This document shows positions 48,811 through 56,640 of a stretch of 64,000 nucleotides of DNA, in pieces. The stretch's first letter is position 1. Each line of letters opens with the position of its first letter. The translations under genes were made by a program, and so were the position numbers. Source of the stretch: an uncultured Gammaproteobacteria bacterium (GTDB taxonomy: Bacteria > Pseudomonadota > Gammaproteobacteria > Arenicellales > JAANXG01); contig CAMYMN010000014.1 in assembly GCA_947259395.1 (NCBI GenBank), forward strand, positions 5,693 through 69,692, written 5' to 3'. The notes beneath the pieces are model-generated. The model did not search any database. It worked only from the letters and a program-made list of their open reading frames with translations, and had not been told where the DNA came from.

Positions 48811-51096
48811 TCAGTTTTTTAATTCACTGTGACCCAGCCAGAGAGAGAATTCATCACGCGGGAACAGGTCTGTATTGAATAGATTGGATCTGTTTTCCTG
48901 TCCACGTAAATTGTTGAAATCCACTATTTGGTCGATCAAACTTTTTCGATGTGCGTCATTTTTCGTCAACCTGTGAAGCGGAGGTTGAATCCGTGCAACA
49001 TCGAGCGTTAGTGTCCGATGCGAGCTGAAATTAAATGCCATACGCGGAACGACGCTGTTGAAAACCCGGCGCGCTGTATTCATTGCGACCGGGGATGCGC
49101 TGCTGTAGGCAGCAAACAGTCCATCGTGTGCTAATCGGGTAGCAACAAGTTGGTAAAACTCTTCGGAGTACAGTCTTCCGCTCATCGAAGTTGTTGACCG
49201 GATGGCGTCGGTGATAATCAGATCCCATGTATCATCTGATCTATGCAAAAAGCGCCGTGCGTCATCTATTACGACGTTAATCCGCTCATCTTCCAAGTTC
49301 CTGTGGATAATGGGGACACGATGTGCCAACGCCACCACCTCCGGCGAGACTTCCACGACGGTTACTTGCTTGACCCGCTCATCGCTCAACAATACGTGCA
49401 CAAAGCCACCCAGCCCAAATCCAAGAACCAGAACTTTCTCGGGACGATCGACGAGGGCTAACGCAGTCAATGGGGTGGTCGGGATACGCGTGACGGGCGG
49501 TGGGTCGACAAGCGCCCGGTTCGCTTGCACAAGACCATTAACGTACAAAGTAAGTTCTTCATCCTTTGAGCTGTCACTGATTGTTGACCGTACGAGCGAC
49601 GCAACGGCAATACGACCTTCCTCGACTGCGGTGAGTGTGCGATTGTCTGAATTCGAGGCGCCGGACCCTAATACCAACACGCGTTGCATTTCGTTAGCAT
49701 TGGGAAAAAGGACCAAAGTTGTTGCGAACATTCCCAGCCCTACGACCTTAATCGGGTGGAACGAGGTAATGGAAGTTAATGCCGCATAGGCAACGAGAAA
49801 TATGCATATGAGCTCAATGGCATAAATGAAACCAAGCCACTGGAACAATAGAACGCCTGTCAAAATAGCGCCCCCGATGTTTCCAAAAATGTTGGCCAGG
49901 TATATGACCCCAATGGAATTACCCCGCGCATGGCCCAGCTCGTGCCATTGAACAATCAGTATGGGAAGGATCCTTCCAAGTAATAGGGTCGGAACAAACA
50001 ACATAAATCCCGCCCAAAAAAATACATCTATGCTTTTCCATATCTTCAGTGAGATGGGCCAGACCGGATCGTATGAAACAGTGGGATGAATAATCGTGTT
50101 GACAGACGCGGTCAACATTTTCCCAAGCCCGGGGATGACCCCACTGTGTACAAGAAGAATCACCGGAAGCATTGTCGCTAGCGCCGCGAATATCATGGTC
50201 GCAGCCTCATCAAACCATGAACGTTTATACATCAATGAAACGTAAGACCAGTATGATCCGCAAGCCAACGCCAGCAAGAACACACACAAGGCCGTAGAAA
50301 AAGCGTACGGAGAGGCCTTCGTCAGGTTAGACAACACGCGATACCAAGACACTTGTAATGAAATCGAAGCAAACCCAACAACGAAAGCGGTCGCCACGAG
50401 TTGGAATGATCGCGTGTTATAGGGTGTCCGCTTGCCGGCGGGGTTCAGCAACAGTGGGCGAGATTGGCCGGCCACAGGACCTGTGGAACAACGTAACACA
50501 AGCCCGCCCAAAATTAGGTTGAATAGCGCGGCCACGATAATCGAGCCAGTTAGTCCCAACAAAGAAATCAACACATAGACAGCCAATAATGCACCCGCAG
50601 CAGCCCCCAGCAGATTGACCGTGTACAAGGACGGCAACGTACGGCGAAAAGAACGAGCGCTTCTAGAGTAGCCCTCGACAAATAGCGGCAGGGTCATCCC
50701 CATTAACACCGTCGGTACAATCAATATCGCCGACACGATCGACAGCACGATGCCAATGTCGACGCCGGCGGTCGCAGTGCCTATTCTTGGAATCAGATAC
50801 AAGCTCGAAACGCCCATCAAGCCAATCGCGAATTCACATAACGCGTACAGTATGAACGGGTTTCGGGCACGATCCGCAATCATCCCGCCGATTTGCGCGC
50901 CGATCCCCAGTCCAAATAGGAAGACGCTGATAATTACGGTAGCAGTGATGCTGTCGGCGCCATAAAAAATACCGAGAATACGCTGCCATGACACCTCGTA
51001 TATCAAAGCTACCAGCCCGGACATGAAAAATATGCCGTACCACAATAGATGCCGATCGGTATTACTCACGCGGTATGCTTTGATATCGACTCCCAA
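48811..51096 (-). CDS. Membrane protein fused to spermidine synthase-like methyltransferase-fold domain
   Basis: N-terminal >10 hydrophobic helices (YEVSWQRILGIFYGADS), C-terminal VLVLGFGLGGFVHVLLSDERVKQVTVVEVSPEVV...DDARRFL. Confidence 0.85.
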   Translation of the reverse strand: MGVDIKAYRVSNTDRHLLWYGIFFMSGLVALIYEVSWQRILGIFYGADSITATVIISVFLFGLGIGAQIGGMIADRARNPFILYALCEFAIGLMGVSSLYLIPRIGTATAGVDIGIVLSIVSAILIVPTVLMGMTLPLFVEGYSRSARSFRRTLPSLYTVNLLGAAAGALLAVYVLISLLGLTGSIIVAALFNLILGGLVLRCSTGPVAGQSRPLLLNPAGKRTPYNTRSFQLVATAFVVGFASISLQVSWYRVLSNLTKASPYAFSTALCVFLLALACGSYWSYVSLMYKRSWFDEAATMIFAALATMLPVILLVHSGVIPGLGKMLTASVNTIIHPTVSYDPVWPISLKIWKSIDVFFWAGFMLFVPTLLLGRILPILIVQWHELGHARGNSIGVIYLANIFGNIGGAILTGVLLFQWLGFIYAIELICIFLVAYAALTSITSFHPIKVVGLGMFATTLVLFPNANEMQRVLVLGSGASNSDNRTLTAVEEGRIAVASLVRSTISDSSKDEELTLYVNGLVQANRALVDPPPVTRIPTTPLTALALVDRPEKVLVLGFGLGGFVHVLLSDERVKQVTVVEVSPEVVALAHRVPIIHRNLEDERINVVIDDARRFLHRSDDTWDLIITDAIRSTTSMSGRLYSEEFYQLVATRLAHDGLFAAYSSASPVAMNTARRVFNSVVPRMAFNFSSHRTLTLDVARIQPPLHRLTKNDAHRKSLIDQIVDFNNLRGQENRSNLFNTDLFPRDEFSLWLGHSELKN

Positions 51097-52862: not shown

Positions 52863-53117
52863 CTACATAAGTTGGTTCAGTATCGATTTGATCGCCTCAT
52901 CAGCTCCGATGACTTCAACATTGTCATCTTCCCAACGCTGTAATTTTCGGATAGTTGGTTAACGTCCTCATCCCCGTCAAACGCTTTTTCTAATTCGTAA
53001 AAACGTAATCATCACTTGATAGTGTTCCGGCACCTCCCAGACCCCTATAATCGTGATTAACAACTCCCTTTGGTACGGGTCGCTGGTGACTACGGATATT
53101 GTTCTAGGTTTTTTCAT
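52863..53117 (-). pseudogene. Unrecognised ~84-aa gene readable only across two compensating frame shifts
   Basis: Minus strand: frame 0 MKKPRTISVVTSDPYQRELLITIIGVWEVPEHYQVMITF, frame +1 YELEKAFDGDEDVNQL, frame 0 RKLQRWEDDNVEVIGADEAIKSILNQLM*; 255 nt in total. Confidence 0.5.
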
Positions 53118-53192
53118 AGCCTGTAATGCGATCAAGAGTCTTCGGCCACATACGTCACCGATTTGGGTGAGTGTTTTGCATCGCTATAATTC

Positions 53193-53221
53193 TTGACTAA
53201 TTTAATAGGATAAACTAAATA
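53193..53221 (+). promoter_or_regulatory. Candidate sigma70-like promoter for hemerythrin-CRP gene
   Basis: TTGACT - 17 nt - TAAATA upstream of 53304/53310. Confidence 0.35.
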
Positions 53222-53303
53222 AATATACCAATTAATGTAGGGTTGTCAGCTAACTTTTTGCCGAACGAATTAGAAAGATGACTATCTCCTTCATCAGCAA
53301 GGG

Positions 53304-54395
53304 TTGAACATGACGGTTATCGAATGGAAATCTGAGTTCTTCGTTGGTATACCGAAGATGGACGCCGACCATCGCAACATGATCGAGCTGATCAACAGGC
53401 TTTATGGGCAATTGCAATCGGGCCAGCGCCAGACGACCATCATAGCTATCCTCGAAGAACTATATGCCAGCGCCGCCAAGCACTTCGCGCACGAAGAGGC
53501 GATCATGCGCGAATGGGGTTGCGATGACTACGCCGGGCACGAGGCAGATCATCAACGATTTCTCCATAGAGTTACGACCTGGATGTCCGACTATCAAACC
53601 GAACGGCTGGATGACGGTATAGCCAAATGGCTTGCAAACTGGTTCTGCAATCATTTCCAGAGGCGTGATGCGCGGTTGCACCTTCCGAATAACACGTCCG
53701 TCGATTCGGTACGACCGCTTACTATAACGCTTCATCGAATTCCCATCTTTGCCTCGTTGACGGAAAAGGACCTAGAGGATCTAGCCAGCCATCTCGATGA
53801 GGTCAAATATCGAAAAGGCAGTGCGATCATCTCCGCGGATGACCCAGACACCAAATTCTTTGTTGTGGCGAAAGGTAAGGTCAAAGTGGTTGTATATAGC
53901 GCCGATGGCCGTGAGGTGATCTTGTCCTGGATGAAGGATGGTGATTTCTTCGGCGATATGGGTCTATTGGATGGCGAGCCTCGAAGCGCCAATGTCATTG
54001 CTCAGGGAGATGTTTCGTTGCTAACACTCGAGCGCGATGACTTCATCAGCTGGCTGGAGGGGCATCCATCGGCATTCATGATGTTCACGACTGAGCTGAG
54101 CCGCCGCCTGAAGGATGCCAATGAACGGATCAGATCTCTAGTTGTACTCGATGTGTACGGCCGCGTCGCTCACAGAATACTCGAATTAGCACGTGACGAA
54201 GGAAAGCGGGTGCGCGGAGGAATCCTGATTGCTGAGCGCCCCACGCAAGCTGAACTCGCTGGTTTTGTTGGTGCGTCGAGAGAATCGGTCGCCCGAGCCA
54301 TGAGTGAGCTTCAGCGGCGAGGCTACATCCGCAAACGAGGCCGCGGTTTCTTACTGTCAGGTGGAAAAGGACTCGAAGCGGAAGTGATGGGCTGA
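53304..54395 (+). CDS. Hemerythrin-CRP/FNR family fusion transcriptional regulator
   Basis: Residues 1-~128 hemerythrin with H23, H60, E64, H79, H83, H117, D122; residues ~140-363 cNMP-binding fold (FFGDMGLLDGEPRSANVIA) + CRP HTH (TQAELAGFVGASRESVARAMSELQRRGYI). TTG 53304 or ATG 53310. Confidence 0.92.
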   Translation: MNMTVIEWKSEFFVGIPKMDADHRNMIELINRLYGQLQSGQRQTTIIAILEELYASAAKHFAHEEAIMREWGCDDYAGHEADHQRFLHRVTTWMSDYQTERLDDGIAKWLANWFCNHFQRRDARLHLPNNTSVDSVRPLTITLHRIPIFASLTEKDLEDLASHLDEVKYRKGSAIISADDPDTKFFVVAKGKVKVVVYSADGREVILSWMKDGDFFGDMGLLDGEPRSANVIAQGDVSLLTLERDDFISWLEGHPSAFMMFTTELSRRLKDANERIRSLVVLDVYGRVAHRILELARDEGKRVRGGILIAERPTQAELAGFVGASRESVARAMSELQRRGYIRKRGRGFLLSGGKGLEAEVMG

Positions 54396-54787
54396 GCCGG
54401 GTGTTGCTTAGATAATTTTCACCAACCCTTACGACACAGCGTGCGGGTGATGTTACACCAAACGTAGGAGTCCTTGTGGCAGTTCAGCGATATCTGGGAT
54501 TACACATTTGAGTAGTTAAACGGGGGGAAGACTAGTGAGTTAGCGAATCATAAGTCCCGCAAAAGTCCCGCAGAGGAATCATAGAGAAGAATCGCTGGAC
54601 CACTTCACCTATAGATAATAATAGAAAAATTGGCCTCCCTGTTTCTAATACTTTTACGAGGTTACCGCCCGTAACCCATGGTATTCGTTGTTTCGTGGTT
54701 GAAAATATTAGAAAGGTAAATCGTCGCGTCGGCTGCTTCTGTTCTGTACGTGATGATCGGCGACACCGGAGCTGATGATTCAGACCC

Positions 54788-54912
54788 TCAGTTGACGATC
54801 TTCCAGGATCCGTCGGGCTGCCGACAAGCAGTACCGTACGCGCTCTGCTGCTGCCCGCCAACGATAACTGTCGTCGTGTACTCGCGGCAAGGCGCTCCGG
54901 CGGGCGACCCGT
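54788..54912 (-). pseudogene. C-terminal remnant of 17-kDa surface-antigen-like outer-membrane protein
   Basis: SPAGAPCREYTTTVIVGGQQQSAYGTACRQPDGSWKIVN* matches the C-terminal pattern CREY..TV.IGG..Q.AYGTACRQPDGSWKIV of that family; upstream part missing. Confidence 0.65.
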
Positions 54913-55338
54913 AGGAAACGAAGCAGATGAAGCTGACTGACAAAGCCATCTTTTGGATGGTAAGCAAGTCACCGGGCCGTAACGCGAGTGAACCCATAGG
55001 TGGCCCCGATACATTCCAGTTTCGAAGGCCGAGCCCCCTGGTTCAGGGCGAAGGCAGCAGGGTATGTCGCAGACTGACTGATGAGACATATTCCTTCGGC
55101 GGGGTGGTAGGGACAGCACGGTGACAAGGGCATGCTAAGCAACTGGAGAAGCCGTCCTCGTCCCATCGAGAAATCGATGGAGCAAGGTACATCTTATAAC
55201 CGGTATAAGCCGGGAAGTGGATGGAAGACGAGACGGTGGCGGCTAGGCTTGTATTAGCGATGAAGCGGGGTAACGCCCGCCGAGCGAAGGGGCCTTGCTG
55301 TACAGAGTATCTTCGACAACATGTGAGGCAGAGGTGAG

Positions 55339-56640
55339 ATGATAAAGGCACCGGCTAGTCTGCAGGATCTGAGGCGAAGACTATACGTCAAGGCGAAGGC
55401 TGAACTGTCTTGGCGCTTTTGGGGATTGTATGTGCATGTGTGCAAACGCGAGACGCTGTGGGAAGCATATCGATTGGCCAAGGAGAATAACGGGGCGCCG
55501 GGTATTGACGGTGTCACGTTTGAGGCGATAGAGGCAGTGGGCGTCGAGCAATTTCTCAAACAACTTCGTGAGGAGTTGGTGCACTATACGTATCGTCCCT
55601 TACGGCTGCGGAAAGCAGATATCCCGAAGGAGGGTGGCGTTCGTACTCTTTCGATTCCTGCGATCCGTGACCGGGTGGTCCAGGGGGCTTTGAAGCTCAT
55701 TCTGGAACCGATCTTTGAGGCGGACTTCCAACCGGGGTCGTTTGGTTACCGGCCGAAGAAGTCAGCGCATGACGCCATTCGACGGGTATCGGGAGCGATA
55801 CTTGAGGGCAAGACCTACGTAATCGATCTGGATCTGCGATCTTATTTCGACACAGTGCGACATTCCATCGTACTCGACAAGGTTGCGGGTCGGGTTGATG
55901 ACGATCGGGTTATGCATTTGCTCAAATTGGTTCTGAAAGCGTCGGGTAAACGAGGTGTTCCTCAGGGGGGTGTGATTTCGCCGTTGCTCAGTAATATTTA
56001 TCTCAATGAGATAGATAAGATGTTGGAGCGGGCCAAAGAAGTCACACGCTACAAGCGGCGGGCGGGGATTGAATATGCCCGGTTCGCTGACGATCTTGTA
56101 GTCCTGGTGGATGGGCACCGGCGTAAGCGCTGGCTGCGAGGAGCGGTGGAGAAACGGTTACGGGAGGAATTTGCCAAGCTATGTGTTGAAGTGAATGAAG
56201 ATAAGAGCCGAGCGGTGGACTTAACGCAAAGGGGAAGTTTCGGATTTCTTGGTTTTGAGTTTCGCCGGGTCCGGACTCGATCTGGTCGTTGGATGCCGTT
56301 GCGTATGCCTCAGGGCAAGAAGCGCGCGGCCTTATTGCGAAAGCTCAAGGTTGTTTTCCGGCGCTTTCGATCCCAACCGCTGAAGGGATTAATCGATGAG
56401 ATTAATCCGATTTTGCGTGGTTGGGTGAATTACTTTGCTTACGGGCACTCGAGTCGGTGCTTTTCGTTTATTCGCAACCATGTCGAGAAAAAGATTCGGC
56501 GCCACCTGGCTAAAGCCCGGATGCGTCAAGGCTTCGGTTGGAAGCGGTGGAGTCGGCGGTGGCTTTATGACGAACTTGGTCTGTTCGATGATTATCGAGT
56601 TCGTTATTTGAACAATTCGTCGACAGCGGCTCTAACTTGA
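55339..56640 (+). CDS. ltrA: Group II intron reverse transcriptase/maturase
   Basis: NNGAPGIDGVTFEAIE, RPLRLRKADIPKEGGVRTLSIPAIRDRVVQGALK, PQGGVISPLLSNIYLNEID, YARFADDLVVLV, maturase-X region (LRGWVNYFAYG). Confidence 0.97.
   Translation: MIKAPASLQDLRRRLYVKAKAELSWRFWGLYVHVCKRETLWEAYRLAKENNGAPGIDGVTFEAIEAVGVEQFLKQLREELVHYTYRPLRLRKADIPKEGGVRTLSIPAIRDRVVQGALKLILEPIFEADFQPGSFGYRPKKSAHDAIRRVSGAILEGKTYVIDLDLRSYFDTVRHSIVLDKVAGRVDDDRVMHLLKLVLKASGKRGVPQGGVISPLLSNIYLNEIDKMLERAKEVTRYKRRAGIEYARFADDLVVLVDGHRRKRWLRGAVEKRLREEFAKLCVEVNEDKSRAVDLTQRGSFGFLGFEFRRVRTRSGRWMPLRMPQGKKRAALLRKLKVVFRRFRSQPLKGLIDEINPILRGWVNYFAYGHSSRCFSFIRNHVEKKIRRHLAKARMRQGFGWKRWSRRWLYDELGLFDDYRVRYLNNSSTAALT

Follow-up and report, generated by a model that had tools for sequence, protein, structure and literature searches.

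Within the CRP family, FNR, CooA and DNR sense O2, CO or NO with the help of a metal cofactor. Bacterial hemerythrin domains are found joined to a variety of other modules: those parts of the published surveys that are drawn upon here list as fusion partners MCP, GGDEF, histidine kinase, CheY-like, HD-GYP and P-type ATPase domains, and the hemerythrin sensors characterised so far comprise c-di-GMP enzymes besides an MCP and an ATPase (PMC2556348, PMC4919030, PMC9388753). Among these, Vibrio cholerae Bhr-DGC and Ferrovum Bhr-HD-GYP combine, within one chain, an N-terminal bacteriohemerythrin with a C-terminal output domain that synthesizes or breaks down c-di-GMP; both are dimeric, and their activity is set by the redox state of the diiron site (PMC9388753). 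DcrH of Desulfovibrio vulgaris, by comparison, is a membrane chemoreceptor whose hemerythrin domain is C-terminal. Literature on hemerythrin together with CRP/FNR or cyclic-nucleotide binding yielded no hemerythrin-CRP protein, which agrees with the sequence-only reading that first drew attention to the gene described here and that knew of no characterisation of this architecture; the full list of 56 hemerythrin architectures in PMC4919030 lies outside the scope of that search, and an uncharacterised earlier listing of such a protein is possible.

Here sequence comparison and structure prediction are used to examine a gene of this kind, which lies on the forward strand of a 64,000-nucleotide stretch of DNA (the window) from an uncultured gammaproteobacterium. 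One intact ORF contains, in order, a hemerythrin domain, a cNMP fold and a helix-turn-helix, the last two of CRP type, as the initial reading of the window had claimed. That reading numbered the protein from a TTG, from which the frame is indeed open for 363 codons (53304-54395), but translation more likely begins with the ATG at 53310 (53310-54395, 361 aa), since this codon aligns with the starts of stand-alone relatives and has an AAGG at normal distance a few bases upstream; residue numbers then become lower by two. All domain assignments lie above curated cut-offs: cNMP_binding (PF00027) at E = 1.4e-24 and 86.3 bits, HTH_Crp_2 (PF13545) at 1.7e-14 and 54 bits, PF00325 at 24.1 bits, and Hemerythrin (PF01814) at 1.2e-8 and 35.9 bits (cut-off 25.3), to which NCBIfam adds TIGR02481 (1.2e-26; 93.3 bits, cut-off 51.75) and the bacteriohemerythrin model NF033749 (91.8 bits, cut-off 84).

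With a hemerythrin domain and an output domain in a single ORF, the protein has the architecture of the DcrH/Bhr-DGC class. It resembles Bhr-DGC and Bhr-HD-GYP in domain order, whereas its output module is a CRP-type DNA-binding one; and it shares the hemerythrin domain family of DcrH, but carries that domain at the N-terminus and has no evident membrane segment. The best explanation, which is given somewhat better than even standing here, is that it is a recently formed in-frame fusion acting as a diiron-switched CRP-type regulator.

The bacteriohemerythrin domain (53322-53675) aligns with DcrH (2AVK) at all seven diiron ligands, that is, at five His, one Glu and one Asp with canonical spacing, which bears out the ligand set first read from the sequence: H23, H60/E64, H79/H83 and H117/D122 when counted from the TTG, or H21, H58/E62, H77/H81 and H115/D120 when counted from the ATG. 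AF2 predicts the corresponding four-helix bundle (helices 15-37, 41-69, 74-95 and 103-124; block pLDDT about 84-97). The canonical HxxxxD spacing of the Asp ligand is retained in the fusion and in one stand-alone relative (L013) and is lost in the closest stand-alone paralogues (L010, L011 and L002), a subgroup that also lacks three residues ahead of the HxxxH motif. Hemerythrins have expanded greatly in the genus as a whole, several of its genomes having many stand-alone copies (L002 and L004-L008 are among these loci). Elsewhere, in hemerythrin-rich genomes, hemerythrins occur with an N-terminal hydrophobic, probably membrane-anchoring segment (L098-L104, L106, L108).

The C-terminal part comprises a cNMP-binding (CRP beta-roll) domain (53802-54059), with the cassette FGDMGLLDGEPRSA, and a CRP-type helix-turn-helix (54159-54353), with the recognition helix RESVAR, both placed by Pfam and compared with E. 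coli CRP by alignment. Like CRP, GlxR and Mtb CRP it thus pairs a cNMP fold with a Crp helix-turn-helix, and it keeps the DNA-contact residues of E. coli CRP (R180/E181/R185) as R326, E327 and R331 in TTG numbering; it differs from them in having an N-terminal diiron domain in place of the short CRP N-terminus and in a partly changed cAMP pocket. Of the cAMP contacts of E. coli CRP, G71, R82 and S83 are kept, while the fusion has E72D, T127A and S128N; its stand-alone parents (see below) have S128D at the last of these positions, and E72D is private to the fusion. The residue set of cAMP-responsive CRPs is therefore incomplete and the predicted cAMP pocket is partly eroded. A small molecule (a cyclic nucleotide or another) bound in the cNMP fold might still control the CRP module, with the hemerythrin serving as a local O2 or iron buffer or as a second input. 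The retained phosphate-binding cassette G71, R82 and S83 is in keeping with this, as is the fact that the nearest solved structures of the C-terminal part are those of the cAMP regulators GlxR and Mtb CRP (Foldseek E about 1e-19); yet the substitutions at positions 127 and 128, together with the fusion-only E72D, argue against E. coli-like cAMP recognition, and such control is considered quite improbable.

The likelier control element of a diiron-switched regulator, the hemerythrin site, would set the protein apart from FNR as well. Residues 139-363 contain no cysteine (the only two in the whole protein are in the hemerythrin half), so that an FNR-type cluster is absent there; inspection of the translation accordingly found none of the 4Fe-4S cluster-binding cysteines of FNR in the CRP half, and the metal site would be supplied instead by a separate hemerythrin domain. 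The task that the protein probably has in common with FNR, CooA and DNR is to let a gas or the redox state control a CRP-type dimer via a metal cofactor. The idea of a sensor-regulator based on neither FeS nor haem, put forward in the sequence-only reading, thus finds its structural prerequisites in place (complete ligands, retained recognition residues and a cysteine-free CRP half), while the sensing and switching parts of that idea keep the conditional form in which they are given below.

Other species of the genus have a gene of its own for each half. Free-standing hemerythrins with 64-69% protein identity cover residues 1-142 at most (L010, L011, L013 and L002, the last within the fusion's own genome), and stand-alone CRP regulators with 70-73% protein identity cover residues 122-363. 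The latter are two copies in a single genome, G004, which is the only one elsewhere in the genus where this CRP subfamily was found and in which the parent genes lie on different contigs. No separate copy of the CRP half was found in the fusion's genome (86.6% complete), where the best other CRP has 36% identity. At the DNA level (blastn), similarity to hemerythrin loci extends over 53120-53718, and similarity to the CRP genes runs from 53718 (from 53730 in the case of the second copy) as far as the stop codon, at about 54397. The linker and fusion point accordingly fall within 53676-53735, and the joining cost only the last hemerythrin residues and about 14 residues from the N-terminus of the regulator. 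A 21-nt direct repeat (52848 and 53715), considered as a duplicated hemerythrin tail, was weak (81%, two copies) and was dropped.

Because the hemerythrin-like similarity includes about 190 bp of upstream DNA (53120-53309, a region common to the genus' stand-alone hemerythrin genes), the fusion has kept the hemerythrin promoter region. Within it, TTGACT (53193-53198) and TAAATA (53216-53221), separated by 17 nt, form a candidate promoter, of which TTGACT is conserved. Just upstream of the fusion, DNA at 52884-53032 resembles (blastn to L057 and L095) what lies on the 3' side of stand-alone hemerythrin genes in sister species. As judged from these alignments and from the lack of a fused homologue in the genomes searched (see below), the gene is a clean, in-frame, lineage-specific fusion under a hemerythrin promoter and does not belong to a widespread family.

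A wrong joining of two unlinked genes in a draft genome would give the same picture, and the sequence-only reading had itself named a sequencing-fused pair of adjacent genes as one finding that would overturn it. The host assembly is indeed a fragmented draft (222 contigs), and the fusion was observed nowhere else. The join, however, is in frame and without a stop; near the junction the longest exact words common to the parental loci do not exceed 8 bp, which is too short for an assembler join; the contig spans 121 kb, with genus-level synteny continuing past the gene (a nucleoside transporter, a HIT protein and a heparinase-like gene); and this genome's other CRPs are at most 36% identical to the CRP half and its other hemerythrin copy only 64% to the hemerythrin half. 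An artefact is therefore regarded as very unlikely.

Selection on the two halves was estimated by pairwise NG86. The CRP half, compared with its parents, gives dS about 1.0 and dN/dS 0.14-0.15; the hemerythrin half gives dS 0.26-0.44 and dN/dS 0.42-0.64 against its closest stand-alone copies, and dN/dS 0.31 against L013. The hemerythrin split is thus younger than the CRP split and bounds the age of the fusion, which looks recent and confined to a single lineage; both of its parents are found in the genus. On the fusion branch the hemerythrin half has undergone 17 nonsynonymous and 9 synonymous unambiguous changes, which, taken with its dN/dS of 0.31-0.64, suggests that constraint has been relaxed or is shifting. 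The 17 polarised substitutions that change an amino acid all spare the ligand positions, a weak point inasmuch as only about one would be expected to fall there by chance.

A rival possibility is that the fusion is real but young and neutral, so that the CRP half may still bind DNA while the hemerythrin is an uncoupled passenger and the gene is perhaps being lost. This possibility is a serious one, though held to be appreciably short of even: the fusion is known from one species only; its HHE half is moderately constrained, with paralogues that are decaying at a ligand; 34 of 79 conserved CRP columns depart from the wider consensus, versus 27 of 79 in each stand-alone parent, and E72D of the effector pocket is among these extra departures. 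AF2 adds to this an uncertain linker and an undefined interface: the model (mean pLDDT 86) has a confident HHE bundle and a confident CRP fold, joined by a short uncertain linker of low pLDDT at residues 127-130, and its pTM of 0.50 means that it predicts no relative placement of the two halves. Against neutrality stand an ORF that is intact over 361 codons, the retention of 7/7 ligands and 3/3 DNA-contact residues, and a dN/dS of about 0.15 in the CRP half, though the fusion is probably younger than much of that divergence and may be younger than much of the constraint.

The functional reading of the gene, a regulator switched by its diiron domain, may be spelled out as follows. A bacteriohemerythrin gene that stood alone under its own promoter was joined, near its 3' end and in frame, to a CRP-family regulator near the 5' end of the latter, which also brought the regulator under hemerythrin-type expression control. 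The product would bind, as a CRP-type homodimer, to a TGTGA-like operator, each subunit carrying an N-terminal diiron hemerythrin bundle roughly at the place of FNR's cluster-binding arm. When O2 oxidised the diferrous site, or when O2 or NO bound to it, the packing of the bundle against the cNMP fold would then change and, through this, DNA binding. Counting against this reading, no TGTGA-N6-TCACA operator with at most 2 mismatches occurs upstream of the fusion gene. The chances are put at about even that the protein is such a factor caught soon after its birth, that is, an O2 or redox switch with a cofactor undescribed for this regulator family in the literature searched. If the coupling is true, a diiron strategy is added to the gas and redox sensors of the CRP/FNR family, and hemerythrin sensors gain a direct transcriptional output. 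Moreover, close parent genes are available separately, and the birth of an allosteric sensor-regulator from a raw fusion can thus be tested with the parents, the fusion and rebuilt fusions. The interest of the gene is in this link between diiron chemistry and transcription and in having both parents at hand, tempered by its single occurrence.

The neighbourhoods of the stand-alone CRP parents offer a hint, and no more, as to a possible regulon: one (L054) lies near an exopolysaccharide-like cluster of glycosyltransferase and asparagine-synthase genes in which a VpsR-domain protein also occurs, and the other (L055) is near OmpW, HD-domain and GGDEF genes.

Searches for fused homologues produced none in the genus or in the family, order, class and phylum samples: none in the 12 other family members, in 109 order genomes, in 369 class genomes or, at two thresholds, in 399 phylum genomes (with only five candidates scored per genome in the last two sets); distant fusions below the E-value limits could escape these searches. 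A profile search of 48 hemerythrin-rich genomes from the order of G571 likewise gave none, this set being a weak one without a positive control. A TIGR02481 scan of 329 genomes yielded many long hemerythrin ORFs among the matches listed; 20 longer-frame candidates among these all had the hemerythrin domain at the C-terminus and no in-frame CRP, and 12 short-extension candidates among the matches listed had at most an N-terminal leader or membrane-like segment or a short C-terminal tail. A plasmid collection held no record covering 80% of the query, and a scan of genome contigs matched only a stand-alone hemerythrin. With a single occurrence, the fused form is without conservation across species. 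In a distant member of the Pseudomonadota (L063, G619:C73:38400-41300), a hemerythrin ORF has a CRP-like ORF (E = 4e-18) on the opposite strand less than 3 kb away.

Two further features of the window flank the fusion gene. Upstream, 48811-51096 encodes a spermine-synthase-domain protein of 761 aa whose N-terminal region is long and hydrophobic; five sister genomes gave no match to it at E<=1e-60. Downstream is a group II intron (54769-56640), which matches Rfam RF02005 at 54941-55114 and whose reverse transcriptase/maturase ORF spans 55339-56640. Copies in two other genomes (G002 and G006) share 94-97% identity with a segment at about 54776-54915, far more than the DNA around it does, as would befit a mobile element.
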